This document shows positions 3,971-21,581 of a stretch of 22,069 bases of DNA, piece after piece. This stretch comes from a virus. The position numbers and the translations under genes are program-made. The stretch is taken from positions 1 to 22,069 of the IMG/VR virus record IMGVR_UViG_3300031999_000219; one strand, given 5' to 3'. The notes under the pieces are model-generated. The model did not search any database, was not told the DNA's origin, and was given only the letters and a program-made list of their open reading frames with translations. Within the stretch, counting starts at the first letter, position 1. Every line of letters starts with the position of its first letter.

Positions 3971-5458
3971 ATGGGTAAAGAAAATACAGATAATGTTTTA
4001 GTGAGGGCTCTGAGAGGTTTAAAGAGAAGTCCTTCTGCATCAGATACTGGAATGATGGGCCAACTAGAGAAATTGATGTATGTTAAAAGAAAGGGAAAAG
4101 CTCCTACCGTAGAGAGGATTGGACCTTCTTCTATACTTATGCAAAGGGCTGAGATGTTATACAGGATGGAACCTTTGATCTTTTCCGGTGTCAATAAACT
4201 TACTAGAAGAATCTCCTCAGGAAGAATCTATTTCACAGGTGATGACGAAGTAGAAAATAAAGCTGCATTAGACTTTGCCTTTAAGATTAAATTACCATCG
4301 TCCCTCAATATGATAACAAAGGATGCTCTCATCTATGGATTTGGTGCTTTTGAGATTGTAAAGGCGAAAGGATTCATAGATTCATTAGAAATAATAGATC
4401 CGAAAACATTTGATTGGCAAAGAGAAGGAAGTGAAATGAAACTCGATGAGAGTGGAACACCAGTAGGATTTCGTACCTCTAAATTGGGAAGGTTGGAGGG
4501 CGAGAAATACACTCCTGAAGAGATTTTCCTTGTCAGATATTACACCATAGGTGAATACTGTTTAGGTATTTCTCCTCTTGAAGCTGCCTTTAAGACCGCT
4601 TGGATAAAGTTAAATCTTGAAGAGGCTCTTGGAGAGGCAATCTATAGACATGGTTATCCTATCTATTCATTTCAAGTAGGAACTGAAAAGAGTCCATATC
4701 AAGATATCACACCTGAAAAGATTAAACAGGCTAAGAAAATCATAGGTAACATGGACACAGCAACAGAAATAGTCTTGCCCTATTGGATAAAATTAGAAAT
4801 GTTGAAAGGTGGAGACACGGGAAACTTTGCTACATTATTGGAATACTTTGGAATGGAGATTCTTGCTGCTCTAGAGATGCCAAAGAGCTTTTCTACATCT
4901 TCATCTCCTGGGCAAAGAAATTCAGAAGAAATGGACTTCGAGAAAACAATTATGGCTCTTCAAGGAGAACTTATAAGGCAAACGATGGATCAAGTCTTGG
5001 AACCTTATTATGCGTCAAAGCATTTCAAGACGAAACCTTTGTTGAACTATGAGATTTATGCTCCTGAACTTCAGAATAGTAAACTTCGGAGACTTTCTGC
5101 TTATGCTAAGAATGGTCTGATAACTAGAACTTTAGATGTAGAGAATTCTCTAAGAAAAGCTGAAGGGTTTAAGACTAGAGAAGAACCATCCTTTGGTAAG
5201 GAAGGTAGAAGTACCAAATGTATCTTTGAACTTGGTGAATGCCCTATTAGAACAGAAGAAGCCCTTACTCTAGAGAAACTGGGAAGCTTCTGTAACATCT
5301 GCATTAAAAGACTTGAAGCAGAAAAGAAGACCCTGAAACCATCTGTTTCACTTCCACCCAGCCAACCTGAACCTACTCAACCTGTAGAAATTGAACCAGA
5401 GATTGTTCAACCAGATACAGTTCAGAAAGAGGTTAAGGCACGTGTCAAAAAACAATGA
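3971..5458 (+). CDS. Portal protein, 495 aa, with C-terminal four-cysteine tail
   Basis: This is the dodecameric portal at the capsid vertex through which DNA is packaged and ejected. Length and content match phage portals of the DUF935/SPP1 gp6 type: an N-terminal wing with ALIYGFGAFEIV (119-130) and IIDPKTFDWQ (141-150), then VRYYTIGEYCLGISPLEAA (188-206), then a clip/stem helix region with LEMPKSF (301-307) and FEKTIMALQGELIRQTMDQVLEPY (323-346 region). After residue 410 there is an extra tail with C417, C424, C441 and C444 (C-x6-C-x16-C-x2-C, a plausible zinc site), ending in a Pro/Glu-rich stretch. It starts one base after the regulator stop, with GAGGG as ribosome site, and its end overlaps the LonB start by 17 nt. 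Confidence 0.85.
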   Translation: MGKENTDNVLVRALRGLKRSPSASDTGMMGQLEKLMYVKRKGKAPTVERIGPSSILMQRAEMLYRMEPLIFSGVNKLTRRISSGRIYFTGDDEVENKAALDFAFKIKLPSSLNMITKDALIYGFGAFEIVKAKGFIDSLEIIDPKTFDWQREGSEMKLDESGTPVGFRTSKLGRLEGEKYTPEEIFLVRYYTIGEYCLGISPLEAAFKTAWIKLNLEEALGEAIYRHGYPIYSFQVGTEKSPYQDITPEKIKQAKKIIGNMDTATEIVLPYWIKLEMLKGGDTGNFATLLEYFGMEILAALEMPKSFSTSSSPGQRNSEEMDFEKTIMALQGELIRQTMDQVLEPYYASKHFKTKPLLNYEIYAPELQNSKLRRLSAYAKNGLITRTLDVENSLRKAEGFKTREEPSFGKEGRSTKCIFELGECPIRTEEALTLEKLGSFCNICIKRLEAEKKTLKPSVSLPPSQPEPTQPVEIEPEIVQPDTVQKEVKARVKKQ

Positions 5459-7604
5459 GTTCTTTGGGAAAGGAAAAGAAACCATAGGTGAAAAGATTTG
5501 GGATTGGGAGAACTTTCAGACAACGGAAGGTTATCCTGTTTCTGATAAACTTATGGATTGGGTAATTGGCCAAGATAATGCTTTAAAAGAAGCTAAACTT
5601 TGCATTGATGAATGGGTACATAAGTTAGAATGGATACAGAAAGAAGACTGGTGGAAGGATTTTGATAATCCTGAAAAACTTAAGCCTCCGCCTAAAGAAT
5701 CTCTTCCTCCTGGGCCATTTCTAATGTTACTTGGTGATCCGGGAACAGGTAAGTCTCTCATAGGAAGAGCATTATCAATCTATATGACGGATCTGTACAA
5801 GGAAAAGAACATCAAACTTTACGATGTTCTTTCTTGGCCTAATAAGATCATTCCTTCTGAACCAAAAGTATCTGTACACCCTTCTCCTGAAGGGAAAAAG
5901 AAAGTCAAACAGATATCGACTAAAGTAGCAAAGAAAGGAAGATTTACGAGATGGGGATTCAAAGCAATCTTCATGCTTATGATTGGAATTGGCCTTTTCA
6001 TATTGTCTTATGTTGCTATTAGCGGGACACTCGATTGGATTAACAATATTGTCTGGGATCCTTGGTTTGGGACGCGTGTTCAGGAAGCTTTTAATAACAA
6101 CTTTTTACAGTATGTTATACAAGCTTGTATGATGGGAAACATCCAGGTTATTATGGCTGGAGTTATGGCTCTATCAATGGGTGGAATGCTATACTTCTTT
6201 GGAAGAATGTCTGGAGGGTTTGGTAATTCTTCAAAGGGGATCGGAGGAGCTTCCAATACAAGTGCTCCTAAGATAATAGTAGATAATTCTAGTGGAAGAG
6301 CACCATTTATAGATGCCACAGGACATGGAAGTTCACAACTGTTTGGCTCCATAGCATGGGATCCCTACCAAACAGGAGACTTAGGCACTCCCGAACATCA
6401 AAGAGTTTCAGCGGGAGATGTCCATAGAGCCAATATGGGCGTCCTCTACATAGATGAGATTAAAAACTTAACAGGTGCGGAAGCTATTACTCTTCTAACA
6501 ATTCTAGAAGATGGTCAGATGCCTATTGCTCTGAGAAGCCAGAGCCATGGTGGGGATACTGCTGCAATGGCTGTCTCTACTGAACCAGTTCCGGCCCTAG
6601 TATTCTTAGTTGTTGCTGGTAATCTCGACAGTGTATGCCAGATTCACCCAGCATTGATGGATAGAATCTACGGATATGGTAAGATAGTAAGAATGAAAAA
6701 TGATATGCCCAATTCAGTAGAGAATAGAAGGAAGTTGGTACAATTCATAAGTCAAGAAGCAGGAAGATTTAAACTTCCTCCTGTCTCTAGGGAAGCTTGT
6801 ATTGAGATAATAAATGAAGCACGAAAGAAATCTGGCAAGAGCGATGCACTTACAACTAAGTTTAGAACATTAATTACTATCATTAAGACTGCTGGTGTTC
6901 TTGCCATCAATGAGAAAGCTCCTACAATCTTAGGTAAACATGTGAAGGCAGCAATTTGTGAACATTGCAAGACGATAGGAAGACAGCTTCTAGAGAATTA
7001 CTTGGAAGAATCAGCAAAGTTCAGAGAACTAAATCCTAATGGTGTTCTTATGGGGCAGATATATGGATTAGCTGTCTTTTCTGAAGGTAGTGAGATGATG
7101 GGTGCTGTACTTAGGATAAAGGGACAAATGACCAAACAGAAGAAGAGTACAGGAGGATTCTACAATGTTACAGGGACTGCAAAGAAAGATGCACAGTATA
7201 TAGGAGATTCCATTTCTAAAACACGTGCTGTGATCATGAAGAAGTACAAAGTAGATATCTCTAAGAACTACTTTACACATCTAGACTTTGCACAAAGTTA
7301 TCATGTAGATGGGCCCAGTGCTGGAGTAGCAATGACAGTTCTTCTATGTTCTCTATTAGAAAAGAAGAAGATAAGACAAGATATTGCTATTACTGGAGAG
7401 ATCAACATAGATGAGGAGGGAGTCTTTGAGGTCACTGCTATAGGTGGAGCACATGAGAAGATAGAGGCAGCACAAGCTAGTGGTTTCAAGACAGTTCTTA
7501 TTCCTTACAAGAACTTTATTCATTCAATCAATCCTAAAGACTATAAGATAAAGGTGATAGGCGTTAAGAATCTTGATGATTGCCTTAAGGAGTTGTTAGT
7601 TTGA
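5442..7604 (+). CDS. lonB: Membrane LonB-type ATP-dependent protease, 720 aa
   Basis: This is an AAA+ serine protease of the archaeal LonB type. Residues from the chosen start: Walker A GDPGTGKS (98-105); two membrane segments inserted between Walker A and B (about 174-194 and 228-255), the hallmark of archaeal LonB; Walker B VLYIDEI (334-340); sensor Asn in AGN (394); arginine finger in ALMDR (408); protease Ser626 in DGPSAG; and catalytic Lys673 in IGGAHEK. All key residues are present, so it should be an active membrane-anchored protease. I chose GTG at 5442, with AGAGGT 8 nt upstream and a 17-nt overlap with the portal gene. An in-frame TTG at 5391 lacks a ribosome site. Its location inside a virion operon is unusual; possible roles are degrading host regulators or quality control during assembly at the membrane. 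Confidence 0.92.
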   Translation: MSKNNEFFGKGKETIGEKIWDWENFQTTEGYPVSDKLMDWVIGQDNALKEAKLCIDEWVHKLEWIQKEDWWKDFDNPEKLKPPPKESLPPGPFLMLLGDPGTGKSLIGRALSIYMTDLYKEKNIKLYDVLSWPNKIIPSEPKVSVHPSPEGKKKVKQISTKVAKKGRFTRWGFKAIFMLMIGIGLFILSYVAISGTLDWINNIVWDPWFGTRVQEAFNNNFLQYVIQACMMGNIQVIMAGVMALSMGGMLYFFGRMSGGFGNSSKGIGGASNTSAPKIIVDNSSGRAPFIDATGHGSSQLFGSIAWDPYQTGDLGTPEHQRVSAGDVHRANMGVLYIDEIKNLTGAEAITLLTILEDGQMPIALRSQSHGGDTAAMAVSTEPVPALVFLVVAGNLDSVCQIHPALMDRIYGYGKIVRMKNDMPNSVENRRKLVQFISQEAGRFKLPPVSREACIEIINEARKKSGKSDALTTKFRTLITIIKTAGVLAINEKAPTILGKHVKAAICEHCKTIGRQLLENYLEESAKFRELNPNGVLMGQIYGLAVFSEGSEMMGAVLRIKGQMTKQKKSTGGFYNVTGTAKKDAQYIGDSISKTRAVIMKKYKVDISKNYFTHLDFAQSYHVDGPSAGVAMTVLLCSLLEKKKIRQDIAITGEINIDEEGVFEVTAIGGAHEKIEAAQASGFKTVLIPYKNFIHSINPKDYKIKVIGVKNLDDCLKELLV

Positions 7605-9529: not shown

Positions 9530-9985
9530 ATGACCGATTTTACGAAAGATCTCACCGAGGATATGAATTTTTCAAATCTTCTCAAGTCCCTCAAGAATTT
9601 AAAATCGATTACAGAACAACCAAGTCTTACTAACGCCTTTGATAGAATCGTAAATTATTTTGTACCAATCCTTGAAGGATTCTTCTTAAGTGGATTCTTA
9701 GGTTTATCGGGATACAGAAAATGGATTCAAATTGATCCTGTTAGTGGAACAGGGACCAATTATCCAATCAAATTTACCGTCTATAAACAAACAGTTACCC
9801 CTCTCTACATAAATATCATGGCTTTTACTCCAGTCGTGGATGTTACAGATATATTCTATCTAGAACCGGATTGTATGAAAAACATTAGATTTGGTCCGGG
9901 AGGGTTTATTGTAAAAAGTGGTGGAACCTGGCAGAAAATCCTCTGGTATACTCGGCGGCTAATTGTTGTGGAGGAGAAAAGTTAA
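9530..9985 (+). CDS. DUF2341-related small protein, 151 aa
   Basis: I cannot name a function. Residues 1-35 are polar and helical. Residues 38-61 are hydrophobic (NYFVPILEGFFLSGFLGLSG) and could be a membrane or assembly helix. Residues 62-86 (YRKWIQIDP...GTGTNYPIKFTVYK) match the opening strands of the DUF2341-like domain that starts the next gene; the rest is beta-rich and not DUF2341-like. The gene has a strong ribosome site (GGGGAGG) and follows the terminator, so it opens a new operon. Its TAA overlaps the ATG of the fibre gene (TAATG), indicating translational coupling. It may be a fibre partner, adaptor or chaperone. Confidence 0.65.
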   Translation: MTDFTKDLTEDMNFSNLLKSLKNLKSITEQPSLTNAFDRIVNYFVPILEGFFLSGFLGLSGYRKWIQIDPVSGTGTNYPIKFTVYKQTVTPLYINIMAFTPVVDVTDIFYLEPDCMKNIRFGPGGFIVKSGGTWQKILWYTRRLIVVEEKS

Positions 9986-12900
9986 TGGTTAACTGGATTG
10001 CTGGTGCTTGGACTTGCCGTAAAAGTCACTTGATTACTTTAAGTGCTGGTGCTGGAACCAACTATCAAGTAGGAATTAAAGTCTATAAGACTACAGGTAC
10101 TGATGGTACTGAAACAGTCAATGGAGTCACTATGGGTAAGGTCTATGTAGGTTCAAGTTGTAGAGATGACTTTGGTGACATAAGGTTCACCGATAATGAT
10201 GGCAGTACTGAACTGGATTATTGGCAAGACCCAGACCTTCTTGTTAGTACCACTTCATCAGTGTTCTGGGTAGAAGTCAAAGATACACTTGAGTCTGATG
10301 CTACAATATATGTTTACTACAACAATGCTGCCCAAACAACAACAAGTAATTTTACTAATACAATGCTTACTCCAGCAGCTAATCCAACATTTACTTTACA
10401 TGGATCATGGGAAACATCTACTTATAACATTCAAACAACTCCTGGAAATACGAAAGTGGCTGATAATAATTATGGTTACATGACAACTAATGACTTATGG
10501 ACTGCCCAAAATGAGGGGTGTGATTGGGTATGGGACTTAGGCACAACAGCTACTAGAACTTTTGTTAGATGGAAAGCTAATGCTACTAGAAATGGTTCTT
10601 ATGCATTGTCTTTTGTAATAACATTACAATCATCAACTAATAATTCTGTTTGGGATACAAAAACAACTTACACATTTACAGAGACAGGTTCTAAAGCCGT
10701 AGCCACAACAGCAATGGGTACAGGTTATAGATATTTCAAGGTTGATCAATGGTCTAGTAGTCTTGTTTTAGTTACTGATGGTCAAACACATGTTGATTCT
10801 GTTTATGCGTCCAAGTATGTTAGTCCTGAACCAGCCCATAGTACTTGGGGAGGACCAGAACTTACTCCTAAGAGTCTCACAGAAACCCTCAAAAAAACAA
10901 GTACTGTCCTCGGTAGGTTTGGCAAGTCTCTTTCATGTGTATTGGGTTTAAGTAACAATGCTAGTACGGATTACATTCACATTCCTGGAACGGTTACAAA
11001 GACTCTATCAGATGCCTTGGCAATGGTTAATATAATTACTAATAAAGTTAGTAAGTCTCTTGTACAGACTTTGGCTCTGAGTGACATTCAGACAAGGGTA
11101 TCGACATTCCTTAGAGAATTCACAGATGGTCTAGGGCTCAGTGATGTCTTCTCATACATCCAATCAATGAATGTAAGTCTAATAGAAACACTAGCATTAG
11201 CAGATATACAGACTAGAGTATGGGAGTTCTATAGGGCATTCACATCCATATTGGGAACATCTGATACTATATCAAGAACAGCATCTTACTTCAGAAGCTT
11301 TCAATCTTCACTTGGATTGTCAAGTACTATCTTCAAGAGAACAGCTAAGTCCTTCATAGAAACCTTAACATTCACTGACATTCAAACAAGAGTTGCTGAA
11401 TTGTATAGGACATTTGTATCTACATTAGGAATGATTGATAGTGTTTCAAGAGAAGCATCATACCTTAGGAGTTTAACATCTACACTTGGACTTAACGATA
11501 TATCTTCACAGATATCATCTTATCTGAGAGACTTCATAGAGGTTTTAGGATTTACTGAAATACAAACAAGGGTATGGGGCTTCTTTAGTGCCCTATCATC
11601 CACACTAGGTATAACTGATGTATTTTCGAATGTCTCATCCTATCTTAAGAATTTCACAGAGAACTTAGGACTTGGTGATCTCTTTTCGTATACTAGCTTG
11701 ATAAACTTCACTCTCATACAGACTTTAGCATTATCTGATGTGCAGACTAGGATACTGAACTTCTCTAGGGAATTTATATCTGCATTAGGTATGATTGATA
11801 CAATCTCGGAAGTAGGTTCCTACCTTATAAATTTAACATCGACATTAGAATTATCAGACTTATTCTCAAGTTCTTCATCTATCCTTAAAATCTTTACAGA
11901 ACTTCTCGGGCTTATAGAAATACCCTCAATTCTCACATCAATCTTAAGAATTCTTACTTTAGGTATGAATGAAACAATCTCAAGAATAATGTCTTACTCT
12001 AAAAATCTCATTGAAATTCTATCTTTTCTAGATACCATTTCAAATGGGTATCTAACACTCGTTACTCTGATAGAAGATCATTCCTTTCCATTCCTAAGAG
12101 AGAGCATAATGAAAACCAGTGAGAAAACATTTGTTGAAACTAAAGGATGGAATGAAATTTTAACGAAGAAAGTAGGAAAAGCCCTAAGTTCAATTATGGA
12201 AATAGTTTCTTCGGTTACTTCGAAGTTTCCTCTCCTAATTATCGAATTATTTGAAATGGCAACGTTAAGTGAGGTTATCTCTTTTACACGTTTAACAATT
12301 CTTTCTCTAACTTCTACTCTTTCTGTTCTCGGATCAGTATCTAAAGATATCACCAAAACCATCTTTTCCGCTTTCTCTCTTGCAGATATTTCGGTAATTC
12401 AATCTTTTATAGAACGATTGGAAGTTATAAACCAAATTAATGTTATTTCAGTCCTTTCACCTTGGGTTGAAAAACTTCTATCTGAAATATTAGAACTAGA
12501 AACAGTATTTGCCCAAGGTACTACTTTAAACATGAATGAAACTATTCTGTTTTCATCCAACTTGCTTGGTGTTTTCAGAAGCCTAGTTATAAAAGAAATC
12601 TTAAGTCTAATTATTACATTACAAAAAGACTTCTCAATCATGAGAAATCAGTCAATCTCTCTTCTCGATCACGTTTCAATACCAATTTTGAACCTCTTCG
12701 AATTGTTAGGAATCTTACATTCATCTTCAAAGAAGATCCTGAAAGTTACAGAAGAGAATTCAAGTATTCTATGGTCTCTTACTCTTATTCAAAAGAAGAA
12801 TCTAGTGCAAAGTATTTCCATCCTTACCTCTTTGTCTAAGAAGGTTTCCAAAGTCCTATCGGCAATCTTCACCATTACCGATAATGTTACTAACTCCAAT

Positions 12901-13221
12901 GTTTTTCTTTCGATATTGAGTGAAATCTTACATCTTACATCTCTGATCACTATGTCATTAACAATTCGGAAAACATTTACAGAGATAATGTCTCTCGTTC
13001 CTTTGTACACTAATCCTTCTAGGACCATTAGGACTTTACTTGAAACTATGATTTTGACACACGATTCTACCTCACCCTTCCTTCTTGGATATATTTATGC
13101 ACGTCTTGCAATTACCCAAGGATATTATGAAGTAAAGATTCTTCTAAAAGATTTCATAACTTCACTCAAGGTTAGAGAAGGAATAAATAGATTGAAACAA
13201 ACAATAAGAGTAGGTCGATGA
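9985..13221 (+). CDS. Long repeat-rich tail fibre/adhesin, 1078 aa
   Basis: This is a probable host-recognition fibre. Residues 5-125 form a DUF2341-like domain (RK..LITL.AGAGTNY at the start, DFGDIRFTDNDGSTELDYW at 62-80, TIYVYYNN at 107-114), a beta-sandwich found in surface proteins. Residues 137-278 look like a discoidin (F5/8 type C)-like sugar-binding domain (CDWVWDLG, TFVRWKA, YRYFKVDQW). From residue 297 the protein consists of repeats of about 20 aa with consensus S-x-x-x-T/S-L-G-L-S-D-x-x-S/Q-x-x-x-x-x-L/F-R, clearest at 361-658 and increasingly degenerate to about 1040. The C-terminus is basic. No signal peptide is seen. A GGAGG ribosome site precedes the ATG, which overlaps the previous TAA. 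The repeats probably build a long trimeric or helical shaft. Confidence 0.8.
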   Translation: MVNWIAGAWTCRKSHLITLSAGAGTNYQVGIKVYKTTGTDGTETVNGVTMGKVYVGSSCRDDFGDIRFTDNDGSTELDYWQDPDLLVSTTSSVFWVEVKDTLESDATIYVYYNNAAQTTTSNFTNTMLTPAANPTFTLHGSWETSTYNIQTTPGNTKVADNNYGYMTTNDLWTAQNEGCDWVWDLGTTATRTFVRWKANATRNGSYALSFVITLQSSTNNSVWDTKTTYTFTETGSKAVATTAMGTGYRYFKVDQWSSSLVLVTDGQTHVDSVYASKYVSPEPAHSTWGGPELTPKSLTETLKKTSTVLGRFGKSLSCVLGLSNNASTDYIHIPGTVTKTLSDALAMVNIITNKVSKSLVQTLALSDIQTRVSTFLREFTDGLGLSDVFSYIQSMNVSLIETLALADIQTRVWEFYRAFTSILGTSDTISRTASYFRSFQSSLGLSSTIFKRTAKSFIETLTFTDIQTRVAELYRTFVSTLGMIDSVSREASYLRSLTSTLGLNDISSQISSYLRDFIEVLGFTEIQTRVWGFFSALSSTLGITDVFSNVSSYLKNFTENLGLGDLFSYTSLINFTLIQTLALSDVQTRILNFSREFISALGMIDTISEVGSYLINLTSTLELSDLFSSSSSILKIFTELLGLIEIPSILTSILRILTLGMNETISRIMSYSKNLIEILSFLDTISNGYLTLVTLIEDHSFPFLRESIMKTSEKTFVETKGWNEILTKKVGKALSSIMEIVSSVTSKFPLLIIELFEMATLSEVISFTRLTILSLTSTLSVLGSVSKDITKTIFSAFSLADISVIQSFIERLEVINQINVISVLSPWVEKLLSEILELETVFAQGTTLNMNETILFSSNLLGVFRSLVIKEILSLIITLQKDFSIMRNQSISLLDHVSIPILNLFELLGILHSSSKKILKVTEENSSILWSLTLIQKKNLVQSISILTSLSKKVSKVLSAIFTITDNVTNSNVFLSILSEILHLTSLITMSLTIRKTFTEIMSLVPLYTNPSRTIRTLLETMILTHDSTSPFLLGYIYARLAITQGYYEVKILLKDFITSLKVREGINRLKQTIRVGR
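11065..11958 (+). repeat. 60-bp coding repeats (20-aa units) with a 180-bp higher-order period
   Basis: Within the fibre gene, the unit x-T-L-G-L-x-D-[IVT] recurs at residues 459, 479, 499, 519, 539, 559, 579, 599, 619 and 639, an exact 20-residue (60-bp) period; earlier copies at 361, 381, 401, 421 and 441 are similar. The segment IQTR[VI] recurs in every third unit (units starting at 459, 519, 579), giving a 180-bp super-repeat, while LGMID recurs 120 residues apart (479, 599). Units have diverged strongly at DNA level, so this is an old array. Confidence 0.85.
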
Positions 13222-13547
13222 TGATGGCTACGAAAATAAATCTTGTGAAAGGGGACATCAATTACGATCTTCAATTCTCTATCTATGATTCGGATGGAAC
13301 TGTTGTAAGTCTTGCTGGGGTTTCACATATCTATCTGAAAATAAAGAAATATCAACAGGCTTCTCCTGTAACTAGTTTAGAAGGTTCAATTCTTAGTCCT
13401 TCCTTGGGAACTTGTAAATTCGATGTTGCAGAGACTTTTAAGACAGATTATGGTGAATATAGAGCAGAAATAGAAATTGATTTCACGAATGGAAAGATTC
13501 TTACTGCTCCTGGTATCACCATCATCGTTCAAAATGATTTGAGTTGA
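13218..13547 (+). CDS. Small beta-rich virion protein, 109 aa (baseplate-upper-protein-like)
   Basis: The N-terminal pattern (INLVKGDINYDLQFSIYDSDG, then VSLAGVSHIYLKIKK) resembles the immunoglobulin-like N-terminal domain of phage baseplate/receptor-binding proteins (BppU type), with alternating strands to the end. There are no catalytic motifs. The first ATG (13218) overlaps the fibre stop (ATGA); two further in-frame ATGs follow at 13221 and 13224, and the true start could be any of these. Its position after the fibre gene suggests an attachment or tip protein. Assignment is by fold-like pattern only. Confidence 0.6.
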   Translation: MMMATKINLVKGDINYDLQFSIYDSDGTVVSLAGVSHIYLKIKKYQQASPVTSLEGSILSPSLGTCKFDVAETFKTDYGEYRAEIEIDFTNGKILTAPGITIIVQNDLS

Positions 13548-13552
13548 TAAAT

Positions 13553-13909
13553 ATGGGTGATAAGAAAGATTGGAAAGCAGATATTAGGAGAGAAATCAAG
13601 AAACTTGAAGAATGGAAGTTGACTGATAGACTTTCTATGACAGCTGCTCTTGCCTTTGCAAATTCCTCTCTTGCCTCTACAGTTGCAGGTTGGAATATAT
13701 GGTTGGCCAATCCCATAATAATGGAAAGATTTGATAATGAACATATGAAAGCCTTAGTTGATAAATTCAACTCCCTTGCGGTATCATTCCTTCGTCTAGA
13801 CTTAGAATATACCGAATTGATGGAAGAAGTTCAAAAGAAAGAAGATGAGGAAAATAGGAAGGATTCGCATAAGGAGAATCAGAAAAAGATAAAATCCTAT
13901 ACAGCGTGA
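13553..13909 (+). CDS. Small helical protein resembling DUF2153, 118 aa
   Basis: This is an all-helical protein. The pattern DRLSMTAALAFANSSLAS, W..WLANPIIM.RF, MKALVDKF, LRLDLEYTELM resembles the archaeal DUF2153 family as I remember it (DRL..., W..WL.dP.ii, LLELD..hT). The C-terminal 30 aa are highly charged. The ATG at 13553 lies just after the previous gene's stop; an in-frame TTG at 13544 is less likely. It sits between fibre-tip and DNA ligase genes and is probably co-transcribed. No function is known to me. The resemblance supports an archaeal host but needs a profile search. Confidence 0.55.
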   Translation: MGDKKDWKADIRREIKKLEEWKLTDRLSMTAALAFANSSLASTVAGWNIWLANPIIMERFDNEHMKALVDKFNSLAVSFLRLDLEYTELMEEVQKKEDEENRKDSHKENQKKIKSYTA

Positions 13910-13913
13910 AAAG

Positions 13914-16040
13914 ATGTCTAAAGAAGAAGATTTGATTGCTACTGAAGATGTTGAAGATGTTATCCCAAAGGTAATAGGGAAGGTTGAACCAACTGCGCGT
14001 AATAAGTGGAAACTTAAGTATAAAGCGAATCTGATAACAGGTAAGATGGACCCTAAGACGATCGATAGAAAACAGTTAGAATTGGTAGATGATGTTTATG
14101 CTAAGTCTCTTTCGGATCTACAGTTGAAAGAACTTCATGATAGACTTCATTTCCTAGAGAAAGAGATTGGTACAGTAACAGAAGGTCTTCAGAACGCACA
14201 CACCTTTGTTTGGGCAGAAATGAAAAGAAGAGACTTGCCTCATAATATTGAAACACCACTTGATCATAAGACTTCCTTAGAAGTAGTTGAATATCCTAAA
14301 CCGGAAGAAGGAATACCTCAGGAACTTAAGGAATATTCGTTAGAAGAAGTATTGAAACTCTTTCCTGAACAAATAGTAGTTGGTGATCCTATTCATGTTT
14401 ATCTCTGTGGCGGAACAGTGAACAGAGAGAAGATCCTTCAAGGGCATGATCTAGATATCCTTTTCAAACAGCCTTATCTTCATAAGCCTACGATCAAAGC
14501 ATTCCTTAATGAGTTAGCAAATTCTAATCCAGAGATCGCTAAGGATGTACATTTCGTATGGGATCAAGAAGGACCACAAATAGGATACTCTTCTGCATTA
14601 TACAGACTTGCATACATTCGTGTTAAACCTGAAGAGATGATTAGGAAATCTCCTTGTAATCTTTCAGGTGGCCCTATCCTCTTCAAACCTTACATTGGAC
14701 TTAAACCTAAGAGTGGGTTTGAAAAGAATGAATTCTGGGATCTCAATGATATGTGGCAGAAGTGGGCTAAGGATCGAATAGATGTAGGGATTGCTATCGA
14801 AGAGAAATATGATGGAATGAGAATGCAGATTCATGTTGATGGCGATAAGGTCAAAATATATACAGAAGATAGACAAAGGGATAGAGCTGTTGCATTTAAG
14901 AAATCTATAGAGGAACTTCTGAAAGGTAAGAAAGCTACCTCCTTTATTCTAGATGCAGAAATGGTAGAATATGCTTGTGGTCAAATAAAGACTAATCATC
15001 CAGAACTTGTATGTAAACAAAGCCCTAGAGAAAACCAAATAAAATGGATAGCGTCTTCTCCAGAGAAATTGGATGATGAAGATATAGTCTTTAACATTCA
15101 TGATTGTGTCTTCATAAATGGAAAGTCCATTAACGATCAAGGATATCTCGAGAGATGGAAACAGATTTCTGAATGTTTTCCTGATTCTCTTAGACATTGG
15201 GCTAGAGTTCCTTGTAAGGTGGCAGAGACCCAGAAACAATTCTTTACATTCTCTAGTGAACTTAGAAGAAAAACAAATGCTGAAGGGATCGTATGTAAAA
15301 CCATAGATTCTAGATATCCAATGAAATATTCTGGTGAGAATAGAGCAGTAGATTGGGCTAAGTTAAAGAATCTTAAAGAAATAGATGTGATGGTCTGGAA
15401 GATAGTTCAGAAGAAGACTTCTGACGGTAAACTCCTGGATCAATATCTCTATGATTGTGTCTTCTCTATTCCATGTTCAGATGTACAGAAGTTCCAAGCA
15501 ACCCATGTAGTAAGAATAGGTGGAAAGTGTTATTCTCATATTGGAAGAACTTATTCTACTAGCGTCAAAGTACATGCTGGTGATATCATAACAGTTAGAC
15601 CAATAAGGATAGCAGAGTATAAAGACAAAAATGGTAAAGTTCTTTATACTTGGATGTTTCCGTACTTTGATTCTAAACACATAGGAAAAATTGAACCAGA
15701 TTCGATTGATGTTGTTAAGAAACTTCTAGATATAGGGACATCTCCTCTTTCTACTATTGAAGAAGATCTTAAGTCAATAGAGAGATTGTTAACTTGTCCC
15801 TTCTTTGATGATGAAAATATATGCCCTCTGAAGGAAAGATTTGCTAAACCTATGGATGAACTTAGTATCACTAAAACAGAGTACTTGAAATATCCTATAG
15901 TTTGCAAGTTGGCTAACTCTTTCAAATGTAGATATGTAAAACCGTACTACTATTCTATTAAGACTATAAAATTGAATAGTAATGCAGAAGGAATAGTAAC
16001 CGATGAAGATGATTGTACAAAAGAAGGTGTTGAAGATTAA
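13914..16040 (+). CDS. ATP-dependent DNA ligase with nucleotidyltransferase-like N-terminal domain and Cys4 tail, 708 aa
   Basis: The product seals nicks or breaks using ATP. Ligase motifs: I EEKYDGMR with nucleophile K298; Ia/III region EDRQRD (318-323) and ILDAEMV (345-351); IV EGIVCK (457-462); V DWAKLK (480-485). An OB-fold stretch (about 488-590) follows. Before the ligase, residues 160-240 look like a pol-beta-type nucleotidyltransferase: VYLCGGTVNREKILQGHDLDILF (162-184 region), that is GG-x11-D179-x-D181, with a possible third carboxylate at D217. After the OB fold comes C628-x8-C637-x26-C664-x7-C672 (CPF...ICPL...VC...KC), which could hold zinc or an iron-sulphur cluster. The usual archaeal replicative ligase N-terminal DNA-binding domain is not recognisable. 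The gene runs directly into the HNH gene (TAATG overlap). Confidence 0.87.
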   Translation: MSKEEDLIATEDVEDVIPKVIGKVEPTARNKWKLKYKANLITGKMDPKTIDRKQLELVDDVYAKSLSDLQLKELHDRLHFLEKEIGTVTEGLQNAHTFVWAEMKRRDLPHNIETPLDHKTSLEVVEYPKPEEGIPQELKEYSLEEVLKLFPEQIVVGDPIHVYLCGGTVNREKILQGHDLDILFKQPYLHKPTIKAFLNELANSNPEIAKDVHFVWDQEGPQIGYSSALYRLAYIRVKPEEMIRKSPCNLSGGPILFKPYIGLKPKSGFEKNEFWDLNDMWQKWAKDRIDVGIAIEEKYDGMRMQIHVDGDKVKIYTEDRQRDRAVAFKKSIEELLKGKKATSFILDAEMVEYACGQIKTNHPELVCKQSPRENQIKWIASSPEKLDDEDIVFNIHDCVFINGKSINDQGYLERWKQISECFPDSLRHWARVPCKVAETQKQFFTFSSELRRKTNAEGIVCKTIDSRYPMKYSGENRAVDWAKLKNLKEIDVMVWKIVQKKTSDGKLLDQYLYDCVFSIPCSDVQKFQATHVVRIGGKCYSHIGRTYSTSVKVHAGDIITVRPIRIAEYKDKNGKVLYTWMFPYFDSKHIGKIEPDSIDVVKKLLDIGTSPLSTIEEDLKSIERLLTCPFFDDENICPLKERFAKPMDELSITKTEYLKYPIVCKLANSFKCRYVKPYYYSIKTIKLNSNAEGIVTDEDDCTKEGVED

Positions 16041-16504
16041 TGCATCCATTCCATGACCTTAGGACCAAGAATCCAAATGCATATGAAAAAGAACTTCAAA
16101 AAACAAATCCTGGCTATGCAGAGAGGAGAAGGCAATATCAGAAAGATTATTTGAAAGAGAAAAGTTCTTCACACGAATTCAGATGGAAGGCCAATGAAAG
16201 AGCCAAAGCATATTTTAGAAGGAAGAGAGAATTGATAATCTGGCTTCTTGGAAGTAAGTGTAGATCTTGTAGTTTCATAGATAAGCGGGCTCTGCAGATT
16301 GACCATGTCTATGGAGGAGGAAATCAGGTAGGAAGGCAACAGGGTGCTTCTTACTACAAAGAGATCTTGGAAAGTATAGAGAGAGGAGAGAATAAGTACC
16401 AACTTCTGTGTGCTAACTGTAACTGGATCAAACGAGTCGAACAGAAAGAATGTTACAAACGGATCAGAACGACCAAAAGAGGGAAAGAGGTAGAAAAACA
16501 ATGA
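16040..16504 (+). CDS. HNH endonuclease, 154 aa
   Basis: This is a free-standing HNH nuclease. CRSC (about 75-78), then LQIDHVYGGG (about 86-95) containing the catalytic DH pair, then LLCANCNWIK (about 123-132) form the zinc-bracketed beta-beta-alpha-metal fold. The first 60 aa are basic and helical (RRRQYQKDYLKE), suiting DNA binding. The ATG overlaps the ligase TAA, and the TGA overlaps the ATG of the next gene, so it is fully embedded in the operon. It may be a homing nuclease, a packaging-associated HNH, or part of the adjacent DNA-end set. All key residues are present. Confidence 0.85.
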   Translation: MHPFHDLRTKNPNAYEKELQKTNPGYAERRRQYQKDYLKEKSSSHEFRWKANERAKAYFRRKRELIIWLLGSKCRSCSFIDKRALQIDHVYGGGNQVGRQQGASYYKEILESIERGENKYQLLCANCNWIKRVEQKECYKRIRTTKRGKEVEKQ

Positions 16505-16881
16505 TGAAAGGAATTCCTAAAGTAATACTTAGACGACTGTTTAAGAAAGAGATTACTCTAACAAGATACACTTACACTGAAAATACTGATGCTTGGGGCC
16601 AGAAAGTAAGCACTTCAGTTGCCTACACTATAATGGGCGAAATACAAGAAGTAACTTCAGAAGATTCTCAACTCTGGAAGGTAGGAGAGGTTCAGATGGG
16701 TGATGCTTGGGGATACTTCTATCCTTCTTATGATGTTGGTAAAGAGATAACTCTTGACGTTCAGAAAGACGATGAAGTAACTTGGAATAGTAAGATATGG
16801 ATTGTTACTGAAATACAGAGTATGTACTACGGAAGGAAAGAAAGCTATAAGAAAGTATACCTTAAGAGGAAGATGCCATGA
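16501..16881 (+). CDS. Head-tail closure (stopper-like) protein, 126 aa
   Basis: Sequence order matches small beta-barrel head-closure proteins (SPP1 gp16-like): ITLTRYTYTENTDAWGQKV, then YTIMGEIQEVTSEDSQLWKVG, then QMGDAWGYFYP, then KDDEVTWNSKIWIVTEI, then SYKKVYLKR. The closing 'D.V...G..W.V..I.......K.V.L.R' is characteristic. It would plug the portal or connector end after packaging. The ATG at 16501 overlaps the HNH stop and follows AGAGG by 10 nt; the longer frame from 16450 would overlap the HNH gene more and lacks a ribosome site. The stop overlaps the next ATG. Confidence 0.72.
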   Translation: MMKGIPKVILRRLFKKEITLTRYTYTENTDAWGQKVSTSVAYTIMGEIQEVTSEDSQLWKVGEVQMGDAWGYFYPSYDVGKEITLDVQKDDEVTWNSKIWIVTEIQSMYYGRKESYKKVYLKRKMP

Positions 16882-18506
16882 AAATAAACGAAGGAATGAT
16901 AGACTGGCTTACTGTGCTTAAGTATCTTAAAGGACAGACAGGTGGAGGATTCTCTCTTGGTCCTTACATGGAATACCCTTCCATTAAGAATTGTAGATTC
17001 GTAATGCAATTTCACTGGAGGGGTAAGTCTATACATATTGATTGGAGGATGGCAGTAAACGATCATCTAGTAGGATGGACTATCTTAAACCCATATGGGA
17101 AAGGAACTCCTGAAATAACTACCTTGGATCAAGCAAAGAGCTTCTTTGGTAGTCATAAGAATGAAGTAATGTTTAGAGCGAATAATCCGAATGTAGGTAG
17201 AAGAGCAGAAACGAAAGCTAAACAGCCTAAAGAATGGATTAAGGCTCAAGGAGTGGTTAAGCCTGGAGGAGTGGGTGCTACAAGATTCGAAGTAGGAGTA
17301 CTACATATCTTTAACGAAGGACAAGTAATCTTAGGGGCTCAGAAGCCTTACTTCCATGAGTACTTTATACATTCTGAGAAAGAAGGAATCTTTCCTATCA
17401 ATAAATGGACTAGGATAATCGTACGGGCAGTGAATGTAGACCAGATCGATCCGGTTAGTAAACAAAAGATTAAGGGTACAGAACTTATGTGGAGAGCAAT
17501 GATTCCGTCGACACAAGAGCCCTACACAATTTCAGATCGTGCCATGATTAAGGAATGGAAAGCTCCTAAAGGTTATACTCCTTTCCCAGAAGAATGGGCC
17601 AAAGAAACATTCCCAGAACAATATAAGAAATGGGAAGAATGGATGAAGGGTGCACCGAAGGTAGAAGAGAAGAATTCTAAATCGACATCTCAATACGTTG
17701 TTCAATATCTTGAATATATGGGCCAAATAGTTATTCGAGGTATTCCAAATACTAGATGGTTCCTTAGGATGAGGGAGGGGGGTAAAATTAAATCTTTCTA
17801 TTCGGATTATGATCCAACTTACTACAATGATATTGCCATGGTAGATGAGGGAAATGTGGACACTAAGTGGTTCACATATGAAGGTGATATTAAACCACAA
17901 ACGGAATACAATCCAACAAAGGAACTTACAGCAAAGATTTCTATCGTAGATTCTGGTTCGGTTGAGATTGTAGAAGAGAAAGATAAGGATGGGAAGACAA
18001 TACTTAATCTGAAGTTTGATGGAAAGAAACTTCATGGTAATCATAGTCTTTCTCAAGAAGAGAAAGGAACTAGCATGTATACTTTCACAAAAGGAATAGT
18101 CACTCTCTCTCAGGGTACTTACTCTCTTCAGAAACATGATATAGAGACTGATGGGATGGTTAAGACTCATATTGATTTACGTCTAAGTCCAGGATTTGAG
18201 TTTAATCTATATGGCAATCCCATACCTCTGAAAGAAGGAGAAGGAATCAAGGCAGTTCTGAAGAATTGTCCAAATGTGGCTGAGTGGATGAAAATTGATA
18301 AAGAGCGTACAAAGATGATGGTAGGAAACCTAGTGACTTATGTGAGTCCTATTGAGCAGGGTAATGTTGATGTCATAGAATATAAACCTCCATTCTTTGT
18401 ATCGATGAGATTTCATGGTAAAGAACTGAATGGCTATTACGTTTATGTACTGAAGGAAGGGAAAGGGATATTGGAGAAGGGTATTCTTCCATCTCCTAAA
18501 ACTTAA
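16878..18506 (+). CDS. LigD phosphoesterase-like protein with triplicated domain, 542 aa
   Basis: The protein resembles the 3'-phosphoesterase (PE) domain of LigD, which trims 3'-phosphate or ribonucleotide ends before ligation. Copy 1 (about 41-185): FVMQFHWRGKSIHIDWRM, with H46, H53, D55 and R57 matching the PE metal site (H...HxDxR), then HLVGWTI. Copy 3 (about 415-540): LQKH, then THIDLRL (H431, D433, R435), then MRFHGKELNGYYV. Copy 2 (about 273-405) keeps the fold-like ending LKFDGKKLHGNHSL but lacks the H-x-D-x-R motif. The KxLxG endings of copies 2 and 3 and shared VD.G.V.I segments indicate duplication. The spacing between first and second His (7) is one longer than in LigD as I recall it. 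It starts at an ATGA overlap with GAGG upstream. Function with the upstream ligase is inferred. Confidence 0.6.
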   Translation: MKINEGMIDWLTVLKYLKGQTGGGFSLGPYMEYPSIKNCRFVMQFHWRGKSIHIDWRMAVNDHLVGWTILNPYGKGTPEITTLDQAKSFFGSHKNEVMFRANNPNVGRRAETKAKQPKEWIKAQGVVKPGGVGATRFEVGVLHIFNEGQVILGAQKPYFHEYFIHSEKEGIFPINKWTRIIVRAVNVDQIDPVSKQKIKGTELMWRAMIPSTQEPYTISDRAMIKEWKAPKGYTPFPEEWAKETFPEQYKKWEEWMKGAPKVEEKNSKSTSQYVVQYLEYMGQIVIRGIPNTRWFLRMREGGKIKSFYSDYDPTYYNDIAMVDEGNVDTKWFTYEGDIKPQTEYNPTKELTAKISIVDSGSVEIVEEKDKDGKTILNLKFDGKKLHGNHSLSQEEKGTSMYTFTKGIVTLSQGTYSLQKHDIETDGMVKTHIDLRLSPGFEFNLYGNPIPLKEGEGIKAVLKNCPNVAEWMKIDKERTKMMVGNLVTYVSPIEQGNVDVIEYKPPFFVSMRFHGKELNGYYVYVLKEGKGILEKGILPSPKT

Positions 18507-18540
18507 ATAAACTATAAAGTAAGTAAAGGTAGTGAGAGAA

Positions 18541-20178
18541 ATGGAAATAGACATGTCAGGTATCTTTGAAGAATTACTAGCCCAGAAAAAGACAGAGTAT
18601 CTAAGTACTCCTAAAGATCAACTCATACGTGAAGAACTTAGCATTACTACTCCTCTCTTCCTGGAAGAAGATTCGAATGGTATTATGATTACTGGAATAG
18701 CCCTTGCTGAAGGTATGTGGAAACAGACTCTTTATACTCCTGAAGAGATAGAGAAAGCTGCTTTAAATCTCAAAGGGAAGGATTTGAAGGTAGAACATGA
18801 ATTGGATAAAGACTTCACTTCCAAAAGTGTAGGTAAGGTTGTAGATACTTACTATGATAAAGCTCTAAGAGCTCTAGTCTTCAAGGCCAGAGTAACAGAT
18901 CCTCTTGCAATTCAGATGGTTAAAGATGGTACATTCCCTGCAGTATCGTGTGCTACATGGCTAGATAAGATACCCCTTAATGCAGAACAAAGTATAGGAT
19001 TTAACTATCTCTTCAAGGAACTTAGTCTCGTAAGACAACCCGCATGTGAGAAGTGTTTCATCTTTGCAATGGAACAACTTTCCAAGTCTCAATCCTTAAG
19101 TATTAAAAAGGATACAAGTAATAAACAAGAAGGAATAAAAATGAATGAAAACGAAGAGCAAGTCATAGAAGTGCTGGAAGAAGATAAGACTGTTGAACCA
19201 GAGAAGGCTTATGCTATCGTTGAATGCACAGAAGAACAACTGGCTGAACTTAAGAAGAATGGTAAGGTAGTCTCGGTACATTATGGCAAGTATCCATATC
19301 CATATACATATGATGAGAAAAAGAACGAATATCCAAAGAAGAATGCCAAGTGTGGTGGAGGCTGTAATGAATGCCCTCTCGATGTCTTACAACTTGCTGA
19401 GGAATACAAGAAATTCATGAAGGACTGTATGAATACTGGAAAGAGTATGAAAGACTGTGCTACTGAATGGGCTGCAAAGAATACAACTCCAGAGAAGAAA
19501 CCTTATGGTGAAGCACCTAAGGAAGGATATGGGGTTCCTGCTGAACAGAATTCTGAGACCTTCATTGAAGGATCACCAGAACAGAAGATAGCAGAACAAA
19601 CCTTTAATCCGCCTCCAGATGTTGATGTAATAGCAGCCAAGATGAAAGTACCTGAAAGTATCCAAACTCAGAACCTTTCTTCGACTATAGAGACTAATAA
19701 AGGAGTAGTACCTCCTGTTGTACCTAAGGTGGAAACACCTAAAGAGGTACCTCAAATGAGTGAAGTAAAGAAAGAAGAAGTGAAGAAAGTCGAAGAGAAG
19801 CCTATAGAGAAACCAGCAGAGGTTCCTAAGGTGGAAGAGCCTAAAGTAGAACCTCCTAAGGAAGTTCCTAAAGTAGAGGCTCCAGTTGTAGAACAACCCA
19901 AGGTTGAAGAACCTAAGCCAGTAGTTGCACCGGTCCAAGAACAGAAAGTAATCATAGAAATCAAAGTCCCAGAACCTAAAGTAGAAGTACCAAAGATTGA
20001 ACCTCCTAAGGTTGAAGCTCCTCCGGTAGTGGAAGAGAAGCCAAAGGAAGAACCTAAGGTTGAACCTCCAAAGGTAGAAGAACCTCCAAAGAGAGATATT
20101 GCTGCAGAGGAACAAACAGTAAAGAAGAATCTTGCCCAGGCAATCCTTGACTTGATTAAGAAAAAGAAGTTCCCATAA
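18541..20178 (+). CDS. Prohead maturation protease fused to Pro/Glu/Lys-rich scaffold, 545 aa
   Basis: Residues 1-180 form a serine protease-like capsid maturation domain: GIALAEGMW, KVEHELDKDF (His86), SVGKVVD, FPAVSCATW (Ser136), ELSLVRQPAC. The His/Ser pair and order match phage prohead proteases (S78/DUF2213-like). From about residue 200 the protein is acidic and low-complexity: a Cys cluster KCGGGCNEC (C271, C275, C278), then PKVE/PPKVE repeats (about 389-516), ending with an amphipathic basic helix (VKKNLAQAILDLIKKKK), typical of a scaffold capsid-binding end. I chose ATG 18541; GTG 18532 is too close to AAAGGT. A weak TATA-like AT stretch precedes it after the PE gene. The scaffold half can be made separately from an internal start at 19141. 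Confidence 0.78.
   Translation: MEIDMSGIFEELLAQKKTEYLSTPKDQLIREELSITTPLFLEEDSNGIMITGIALAEGMWKQTLYTPEEIEKAALNLKGKDLKVEHELDKDFTSKSVGKVVDTYYDKALRALVFKARVTDPLAIQMVKDGTFPAVSCATWLDKIPLNAEQSIGFNYLFKELSLVRQPACEKCFIFAMEQLSKSQSLSIKKDTSNKQEGIKMNENEEQVIEVLEEDKTVEPEKAYAIVECTEEQLAELKKNGKVVSVHYGKYPYPYTYDEKKNEYPKKNAKCGGGCNECPLDVLQLAEEYKKFMKDCMNTGKSMKDCATEWAAKNTTPEKKPYGEAPKEGYGVPAEQNSETFIEGSPEQKIAEQTFNPPPDVDVIAAKMKVPESIQTQNLSSTIETNKGVVPPVVPKVETPKEVPQMSEVKKEEVKKVEEKPIEKPAEVPKVEEPKVEPPKEVPKVEAPVVEQPKVEEPKPVVAPVQEQKVIIEIKVPEPKVEVPKIEPPKVEAPPVVEEKPKEEPKVEPPKVEEPPKRDIAAEEQTVKKNLAQAILDLIKKKKFP
19141..20178 (+). CDS. Nested scaffold protein from internal start, 345 aa
   Basis: An in-frame ATG at 19141 lies inside the protease gene, with GAAGGA 6 nt upstream (19129-19134), the best ribosome site in that gene. 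It falls at the junction between the protease domain and the acidic scaffold region. This copies the lambda C/Nu3 arrangement, in which the scaffold is translated from within the protease gene. The product would be the protease's C-terminal 345 aa: Cys cluster, Pro/Glu/Lys repeats and a capsid-binding helix. Separate expression is an inference from the ribosome site. Confidence 0.55.
   Translation: MNENEEQVIEVLEEDKTVEPEKAYAIVECTEEQLAELKKNGKVVSVHYGKYPYPYTYDEKKNEYPKKNAKCGGGCNECPLDVLQLAEEYKKFMKDCMNTGKSMKDCATEWAAKNTTPEKKPYGEAPKEGYGVPAEQNSETFIEGSPEQKIAEQTFNPPPDVDVIAAKMKVPESIQTQNLSSTIETNKGVVPPVVPKVETPKEVPQMSEVKKEEVKKVEEKPIEKPAEVPKVEEPKVEPPKEVPKVEAPVVEQPKVEEPKPVVAPVQEQKVIIEIKVPEPKVEVPKIEPPKVEAPPVVEEKPKEEPKVEPPKVEEPPKRDIAAEEQTVKKNLAQAILDLIKKKKFP
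19705..20090 (+). repeat. Degenerate Pro-Lys-Val-Glu coding repeats
   Basis: The DNA encodes about 130 residues dominated by PKVE, PPKVE, VPKVE and EEKP, with frequent CCTAAGGT(T/G)GAA-type 9- to 12-mers. It gives an extended, charged scaffold segment. Copy number is likely to vary between relatives by slippage or recombination. Long open frames on the opposite strand here are by-products of this composition. Confidence 0.8.
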
Positions 20179-20549: not shown

Positions 20550-21581
20550 ATGAAAGCACTTGAAGAACTAAGTACCATTGCAGAAACTAACATACTTCAG
20601 ATGGTCCCTAAGATCATCCTAGATACTGTAGAAGAAGCTGCAAGAGCTAGACGCTTTGGTCGTAACCTCATCAAAATAAATGATGACCTTGTTAGGACTA
20701 AAGGTAGAAGCATAGTCATTGGCCGTAGAGGTACATTGACTGCTGCTACTGTTTCGGAAGGAACAACTTGTCCAGCAACCAACTTCTCATACACATCTAC
20801 TACAATCACACCAAGTAAAATTGGTGTAGCATCTCATATCACTGAGGAAGCTATTGAGGGTGTGGAATTGAACCTCATCCAAGATGTAGTAACTGAGGCT
20901 GGTATCTCTTTGGCAGACAAGGAAGATGCGGACATCATCAAGGCACTGCTAGGTTATACAGTTGCAACTCTTGTTGCAAATGCATCAACTCAAGATGTTT
21001 CGTCTAGCAATACTAGGAAACTGGTATATGTTGATGAAACAAATGCAAGTGTCCTGAAGGTAGACTACTACAATGCAAGGATATCAACTACAGGAGCAGG
21101 CACTATTATCTATTGGTTTAGTACTAACAAATACTTCTATGATGTAGCTTCAGCATGCACTTTGGCCTATGAGGACATTGTGGGTGCAGTTGCAGATATC
21201 AAAGGAAGAAAGTGGGATCCTAAGTTCATAGTGATCCATCCTGCCAATGTAGGAAACATCCTGAAGAGCACCATGTTCATAGATGCCTCGAAGTATGGTA
21301 GTAACCAACACATTGTAACTGGAGAATTGGGATCGATAAGTGGACTTAAAGTCCTATCGACAACCAACATGCCCTCAACTGGCTGTGCTTTGGTCATTGA
21401 CCCAAGTAGAGCTGCTTGGATGGCAATGAGAAGAACTCTAGATATGAAGCGTTGGGACAATCCTGCTACTGATGCTGTCGAACTGTACTTCTATATGGAG
21501 TATGGTGTTGCGGTCTCTGACCAAGACGCTTTGGAGATAATAGTAGACTTTACTCCACTGTCCGACAAGACATTAGCATAG
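20550..21581 (+). CDS. Major capsid protein, HK97 fold, 343 aa
   Basis: This is probably the shell protein. Its length and layout fit HK97-type capsid proteins without a delta domain (the scaffold is encoded upstream). There is an N-terminal helix (LEELSTIAETNILQMVPKIIL), then RRFGRNLIKINDDLVRTKGRSI (N-arm/E-loop region). VASHITEEAIEGVELNLIQDV (P-domain spine helix) and YEDIVGAVADIKGRKWDPKFIVIHPANVGNI (A-domain, typical of capsids) follow, ending in VELYFYMEYGVAVSDQDALEIIV. It is preceded by its own TATA and strong AAGGAG. Codon use looks more biased (CGT Arg, more C-ending codons) than in neighbours, as expected for the most abundant protein. A terminator follows. Confidence 0.85.
   Translation: MKALEELSTIAETNILQMVPKIILDTVEEAARARRFGRNLIKINDDLVRTKGRSIVIGRRGTLTAATVSEGTTCPATNFSYTSTTITPSKIGVASHITEEAIEGVELNLIQDVVTEAGISLADKEDADIIKALLGYTVATLVANASTQDVSSSNTRKLVYVDETNASVLKVDYYNARISTTGAGTIIYWFSTNKYFYDVASACTLAYEDIVGAVADIKGRKWDPKFIVIHPANVGNILKSTMFIDASKYGSNQHIVTGELGSISGLKVLSTTNMPSTGCALVIDPSRAAWMAMRRTLDMKRWDNPATDAVELYFYMEYGVAVSDQDALEIIVDFTPLSDKTLA

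Follow-up and report, generated by a model that had tools for sequence, protein, structure and literature searches.

A putative LigD-like DNA end-healing and sealing cassette beside the prohead protease gene of archaeal tailed viruses

A ligase gene and a three-copy phosphoesterase gene in a virion operon

Bacterial and archaeal cells heal DNA ends with LigD-type enzymes, which act together with Ku. Here we describe a viral gene set of this kind, a cassette made up of an ATP-dependent DNA ligase gene and a gene for a three-copy LigD-type 3'-phosphoesterase (PE), in the IMG/VR record IMGVR_UViG_3300031999_000219 (positions 1 to 22,069; this whole 22,069-nt stretch is referred to here as the window). 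The 22-kb stretch is a fragment of a tailed-virus genome, in which an intein-containing terminase gene on the minus strand is followed by genes for a portal protein, a LonB-type protease, tail-like proteins, a DUF2153 protein, the cassette, an XkdF-like protease/scaffold and an HK97-type capsid protein. The ligase, HNH, adaptor-like and PE genes form a tight run with overlapping start and stop codons. An earlier note, made from the sequence alone, had read this run as an overlapping operon encoding a nucleotidyltransferase (NTase)-like/ligase/four-cysteine (Cys4) fusion, an HNH nuclease and a protein with three PE-like copies, and we found all of these genes where it had placed them, together with an adaptor-like gene (16501-16881) that it did not mention.

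The ligase gene (P0001, 708 aa; 13914..16040, plus strand, as are all genes and domains given below with coordinates in this form) was delineated by profile, model and alignment. Residues 290-490 of its product constitute a DNA ligase adenylation domain (Pfam DNA_ligase_A_M, E 1.4e-20), after which comes an OB domain (14766..15743 for the two, with K298 in the motif KYDG). Catalytic motifs I-V are present, eight residues (K298, D300, G301, E349, E457, K462, K483 and K485) are invariant in 16/16 ligase homologues, and the AlphaFold model (mean pLDDT 77) matches human DNA ligase 1 with Z 26.1 and a root-mean-square deviation (rmsd) of 2.8 across 314 residues (VIA). Upstream of the ligase, residues 140-262 (14331..14699) resemble a nucleotidyltransferase of the pol-beta superfamily, with the pattern G166...D179-x-D181...D217 invariant in 16 homologues. 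Profile matches of this domain to the PDB agree with one another without reaching significance (E 0.07-0.4; best MNT antitoxin, E 0.07; DNA polymerase beta, E 0.15), and NTP_transf_2 matches one family member at E 0.03; judged from sequence, membership of the pol-beta superfamily is therefore suggestive. An equivalent motif was seen in the distant clades examined, one of which places the domain between ligase and PE. Finally, four C-terminal cysteines (C628, C637, C664 and C672; 15786..15953), invariant in 16/16 homologues and lying where model confidence is low, form a probable metal or Fe-S site.

The ligase gene shows irregularities in some relatives. In one clade it is broken between its halves, by an in-frame TAG in three loci (L028:6774-6776, L032:6407-6409 and L037:4150-4152), by a frame change in L033 and L035 (near 7140) and by several stops in L034, which may reflect recoding, an intron or decay. 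The L003 ligase carries an intein near motif V (intein region of L003, 1239-9081).

The second gene (P0002, 542 aa; 16878..18506) was identified as a three-copy LigD-type 3'-phosphoesterase by model, Foldseek/VIA and profile. It would pass as unknown, because sequence libraries searched with P0002 alone (Pfam, PHROGs, NCBIfam and PDB by phmmer) give no LigD match; P0002 alone also found no matches among viral contigs, and the PE family came to light only via the ligase neighbours and an alignment of the family (A2). The AlphaFold model built from an alignment with 26 homologues (pLDDT 83.8) has six confident structural matches, all of them LigD PEs (3p43, 3p4h, 3n9b, 3n9d, 5dmp and 2lj6; Foldseek, VIA); the best VIA match is 3p43 (Z 16.1, rmsd 2.2 over 120 residues), and the row after these six drops to Z 4.9. 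Foldseek against BFVD returned no viral protein above chance. A profile from the P0002 alignment (A4) reaches the LigD PEs of the PDB by sequence (E 2.3e-7) and retrieves stand-alone cellular LigD PEs from archaeal genomes, and hhalign aligns copies 1, 2 and 3 to cellular archaeal PEs with probabilities of 95%, 98% and 98.7%. One relative, L002, passes the Pfam cut-off for the LigD PE (LigD_N) domain, whereas the window protein alone falls below it. By modelled fold and metal site, P0002 belongs to the LigD PE superfamily; the earlier note had named an unrelated virion component as the alternative, and structure comparison, hhalign and profile agree on the PE relationship instead.

In the LigD PE of P. 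aeruginosa the metal triad is His42/His48/Asp50, joined by Arg52 (PMC8656161). The equivalents in copy 1 (16983..17552; H46-H53-D55-R57, plus a family-specific QKPYFHEYF motif) are kept in 26/26 homologues spanning the site, and those in copy 3 (18099..18488; H420-H431-D433-R435) are all four kept in 18/19 homologues, although overall identity is low for both copies. Copy 2 (17673..18104; VIA match 3p43) keeps the fold, but its metal ligands are gone in the window's clade while being retained by some relatives, e.g. L028 and L034. Hence, of the three PE-like copies proposed in the earlier note, all stand by fold and only copies 1 and 3 by metal site; for these two, catalytic activity is predicted from sequence. 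In L003, an intein lies in the active-site motif of copy 1.

Conservation and fusion of the cassette in related viruses

We gathered PE-bearing viral contigs with the PE as the starting point, a few more being added through a ligase search. The set came to 45 contigs with a PE, the window among them, which fall into 36 clusters at 90% identity. A ligase lies nearby on the same strand in 42/45, and the remaining 3/45 are cut on the side where the ligase would be, so the co-occurrence of the two genes, whose lack the earlier note had named as refuting its reading, holds in relatives. The usual order among nearer relatives is DUF2153 - [metallo-beta-lactamase (MBL)] - NTase - ligase - PE - XkdF-like protease - capsid protein. 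In ANMV-1, L016, L030, L036, L039, L042 and L059, NTase, ligase and PE form one polypeptide, the domain order being permuted among the distant relatives of this type; L059, from a Thermoprotei metagenome-assembled genome (MAG), encodes MBL-NTase-ligase-PE as a single 1882-aa frame, and in ANMV-1, a named archaeal virus, the NTase-ligase-PE gene (AJP62006, KP703175) is labelled only 'ATP-dependent DNA ligase'.

Further domains accompany this core. An MBL-fold hydrolase is linked to the ligase in L001, L003, L012 and L018; the L036 frame adds a HAD/PNK-type 3'-phosphatase and a 2H domain; and the L028 frame adds a Dam methyltransferase. In L042 an N-terminal queuine tRNA-ribosyltransferase/DpdA-like domain (L042:6360-7400; phrog_887, E 1.2e-11), which by its sequence suggests 7-deazaguanine modification of DNA, is fused to NTase-PE-ligase-XkdF. 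These extra domains (HAD/PNK, 2H, Dam and DpdA-like) are of kinds that process DNA ends or protect DNA. The association drawn from the window is real but wider than first described, as it also takes in ANMV-1, MBL domains and polypeptides joined to the XkdF prohead protease. PADLOC on five proteins gave no matches. As a separate observation, L055:6051-9932 encodes an MBL-NTase-ligase protein with an XkdF-like gene downstream and no PE found, a possible PE-less variant of the cassette, and the MBL part of L001 carries an intein (L001:6983-12067).

The gene following the PE gene in the window (18532..20178) encodes an XkdF/S78-like prohead protease, recognised by hhalign and by conserved H and S residues, with a Pro/Glu/Lys-rich scaffold-like tail. 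It gave no direct match to Pfam PF14550 and none to the hidden Markov model of the fused domains; by profile-profile comparison, it is a distant relative of the fused XkdF domain (hhalign against fused Peptidase_S78_2 domains 86%, E 4.8e-6; unrelated controls 0.1-0.2%). In relatives the XkdF-like protease is mostly the next gene after the cassette, with the capsid gene further on. In L030, L031, L038 and L042 the PE polypeptide itself ends in Peptidase_S78_2 (XkdF; E 8e-33 to 7.5e-14), and the ligase is part of the same polypeptide in L030, L038 and L042 and weak in L031. Prohead proteases work inside the procapsid, and a protein fused to one should therefore be built into the head.

The cassette and LigD

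Searches of 33 records (the window and 32 related ones, mostly fragments of genomes whose hosts may supply Ku) found Ku (PF02735) in 0/33, with working controls, in keeping with the remark of the earlier note that no Ku was visible; the LigD primase-polymerase (PF21686) was likewise found in 0/33, with a working control. We provisionally conclude that both are absent from the cassette viruses. Like LigD and the archaeal (Methanocella) AP-NHEJ (non-homologous end joining) enzymes, the viral set encodes an ATP-dependent ligase together with a LigD-type 3'-phosphoesterase (structure matches 3p43, 3p4h, 3n9b and 5dmp); it differs from them in being without AEP polymerase and Ku, in a triplicated PE, in the pol-beta-like NTase and Cys4 attached to the ligase, and in its place in a viral head operon. 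The cassette would work like LigD and PNK-ligase systems, yet it is not LigD, because neither polymerase nor Ku was found with it. The rearranged, LigD-like healing and sealing set that the earlier note saw in the virion operon is thus borne out at its core, though not in its inclusion of the HNH gene.

A proposed role in virion-borne DNA repair and its alternatives

Domain identities, conserved catalytic residues, gene linkage and protease fusions were all observed computationally, and the identity of the enzymes is well supported. From these we infer activity, substrate, timing, packaging and function: at a rough probability of 0.55, the cassette would be a module that heals 3' ends of DNA and seals nicks. 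It would be produced late, alongside the procapsid, and would probably travel inside the head and enter the cell with the genome. PE copies 1 and 3 would use their His-His-Asp metal sites to strip 3'-terminal ribonucleosides or 3'-phosphates and leave a 3'-OH, while copy 2 may serve as a structural or DNA-binding repeat. The pol-beta-like NTase might add one or more nucleotides to ends or gaps, or be a regulatory or binding domain; the ligase, adenylated at K298, would then seal 3'-OH/5'-phosphate ends, and Cys4 may stabilise the protein or bind DNA. In some relatives the set would be widened by an MBL hydrolase, a HAD/PNK-type phosphatase or a 2H domain, with the virus's own prohead protease on the same polypeptide. 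The likely gain would be that nicks and breaks in virion DNA (from restriction, CRISPR or heat damage) are mended at cell entry, before viral expression. More tentatively, and on balance leaning against it, we consider that archaeal (and related) tailed viruses may include a widespread lineage that builds upon its prohead protease a repair polyprotein (NTase, DNA ligase and LigD PEs, often with an MBL hydrolase, an end phosphatase or a DNA-modifying enzyme) that is packaged in the capsid, freed at maturation and injected to heal and seal the genome, and that would amount to a virion-borne, Ku-free analogue of LigD.

Several observations weigh against delivery and repair. The cassette genes are separate in the window, and the case for packaging comes from gene order and protease fusions; the Dam (L028) and DpdA-like (L042) domains are just as compatible with enzymes that act on DNA ahead of packaging; motif VI of the window ligase looks degenerate in the alignment; and the assignment of the NTase to the pol-beta superfamily is sub-significant by profile. 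In addition, P. aeruginosa LigD cannot do without His84 and Tyr88, which bind phosphate (PMC8656161), and in the alignment this pair is replaced by Q116/W120 in copy 1 and by C464/W470 in copy 3. A Trp at the Tyr88 position is also found in cellular archaeal PEs, and the almost invariant QKPYFHEYF of copy 1 might stand in for the pair. This replacement, like the lost site of copy 2, would suit PE repeats that are a structural or DNA-binding head component without catalysis, but the metal triad and Arg are invariant in copy 1 of all homologues spanning it and kept in 18/19 for copy 3, and copy 1 of L003 has an intein at its active-site motif, so we give a non-catalytic role very little credence.

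The main rival to delivery is genome finishing in the producing cell, where the enzymes would seal nicks and clean the ends of concatemers at the packaging motor (some relatives also methylating or modifying bases) and would not be injected. Late/head gene position and prohead-protease fusion put the enzymes at the procapsid in this case too, and a Dam methyltransferase or a DpdA-like domain would be most useful before packaging. A cytosolic ligase, however, needs no fusion to an internal head protease, and DarB of phage P1 is a virion-carried DNA-modifying enzyme able to act after injection (PMC5512222); we therefore regard finishing as unlikely, if still the strongest of the alternatives.

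The remaining alternatives, NHEJ-like circularisation and RNA repair, are, like a purely structural role, less likely because of the points against each. That the injected linear genome is circularised or rejoined by NHEJ, with host Ku or none, gains from the presence of ligase and PE, which make up two of LigD's three domains, with the NTase occupying the place of the LigD polymerase, and mycobacteriophages Omega and Corndog combine a phage Ku with host LigD for circularisation; but the 33 records, fragmentary as the window and its relatives are, yielded neither Ku nor the LigD primase-polymerase, and we hold end joining proper to be improbable. Still less probable is repair of RNA or RNA-DNA hybrids in the manner of T4 Pnkp/Rnl. 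It draws on a Pfam RNA_ligase match of P0001 (E 3e-6), on the 2H and HAD/PNK-type phosphatase domains of L036 and on the action of LigD PE on 3'-ribonucleotide ends (PMC8656161); against it, P0001 matches the DNA ligase profile much better (E 1.4e-20), and the structure fits DNA ligase I including the OB domain.

Comparison with known systems

One of the nearest known systems is ANMV-1 AJP62006, which shares NTase, ligase and PE in one polypeptide and an adjoining portal-like gene; there, PE and NTase are unannotated, copy 3 is missing and one gene takes the place of two. Phage polyvalent proteins, e.g. P1 DarB, provide a precedent for virion-packaged enzymes that protect DNA, and share with the cassette a large multidomain enzyme architecture, a late/head region, peptidase and pol-beta NTase domains and predicted delivery with the DNA (PMC5512222). 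The survey text on them mentions ligases only as RNA ligases and LigD never (PMC5512222). The cassette also differs in its protease, which is of the XkdF/S78_2 type, and in being divided among genes in the window. Several enzymes plus a peptidase in a single late-region polypeptide are found in L030, L031, L038 and L042 but not in the window; the fused relatives resemble polyvalent proteins, and the window has the split version. Enzyme-XkdF fusions also occur in PHROGs, named DNA methyltransferase (phrog_1530) and RNA ligase (phrog_14859), whose C-terminal part matches head maturation protease as in the fused relatives, and which differ from the NTase-DNA ligase-PE set. Bacteria have a repair cluster of Lhr, MBL exonuclease, ligase and phosphoesterase; a ligase linked to an MBL-fold hydrolase is shared with it by L001, L003, L012 and L018, but its phosphoesterase is of another family, no Lhr was seen in the viral set, and the context here is viral.

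Virion-delivered enzymes and enzyme-XkdF fusions are thus already known themes. For the NTase-ligase-LigD-PE combination, its conservation beside the prohead protease and its distribution in archaeal viruses, we found no description in the portions of the open-access literature covered; nor did any open-access paper match ANMV-1 with DNA ligase, or a LigD phosphoesterase in an archaeal virus. If the proposed role is true, some viruses carry their own DNA-repair kit, a capsid-region, LigD-type healing set without Ku or AEP polymerase that is sometimes fused to a protease. Such a kit would explain, in a way open to experiment, how virion DNA that is damaged inside the particle or cleaved as it enters the cell can be saved ahead of gene expression. 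It would also add a new family of end-processing ligases that are compact and possibly thermostable.

Neighbouring genes and possible host

Between the ligase and PE genes lie an HNH endonuclease gene (16040..16504; phrog_2255, E 3.4e-10) and a gene for a head-tail adaptor-like protein (16501..16881; phrog_793, E 0.0018). The earlier note had counted the HNH nuclease as part of the cassette. Among the loci searched, its homologues are limited to L010 (two copies) and L017, and only L010 has one at this site, its second copy being elsewhere, so we rejected the HNH as a cassette member; it is probably a mobile or hitch-hiking gene. The adaptor-like gene lies downstream of the major capsid gene in relatives.

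Immediately upstream of the ligase gene is the DUF2153 gene (13544..13909; archaeal family, Pfam PF09921, E 4.7e-9), homologues of which adjoin the cassette in L001, L002, L003, L010, L012, L014, L017, L018, L025 and L027. The HK97-type major capsid gene lies at 20550..21581 (Pfam Phage_capsid, E 1.9e-12); L002 has two major capsid-like genes on opposite strands of one contig (7457-8518 and 16869-17951).

By DNA similarity the window is closest to a contig assigned to an Archaeoglobales MAG (G005/L058), with 65-69% identity across several genes, reaching 74% in one short stretch. Other Archaeoglobi genomes give short matches, several of them (~73%) within the LonB-type protease gene of the virion operon (5391-7604; TIGR00764, E 5.7e-116). 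This DNA similarity is suggestive of an Archaeoglobi-related host, and because Archaeoglobi matches fall in the LonB gene, this gene may have been taken from the host. The terminase intein noted above lies in the gene at 720-3032. At the tail-gene position, the window (9985-13221), L001 (L001:15914-21940) and L003 (L003:12547-15954) encode very long proteins with degenerate Leu/Ser-rich repeats.

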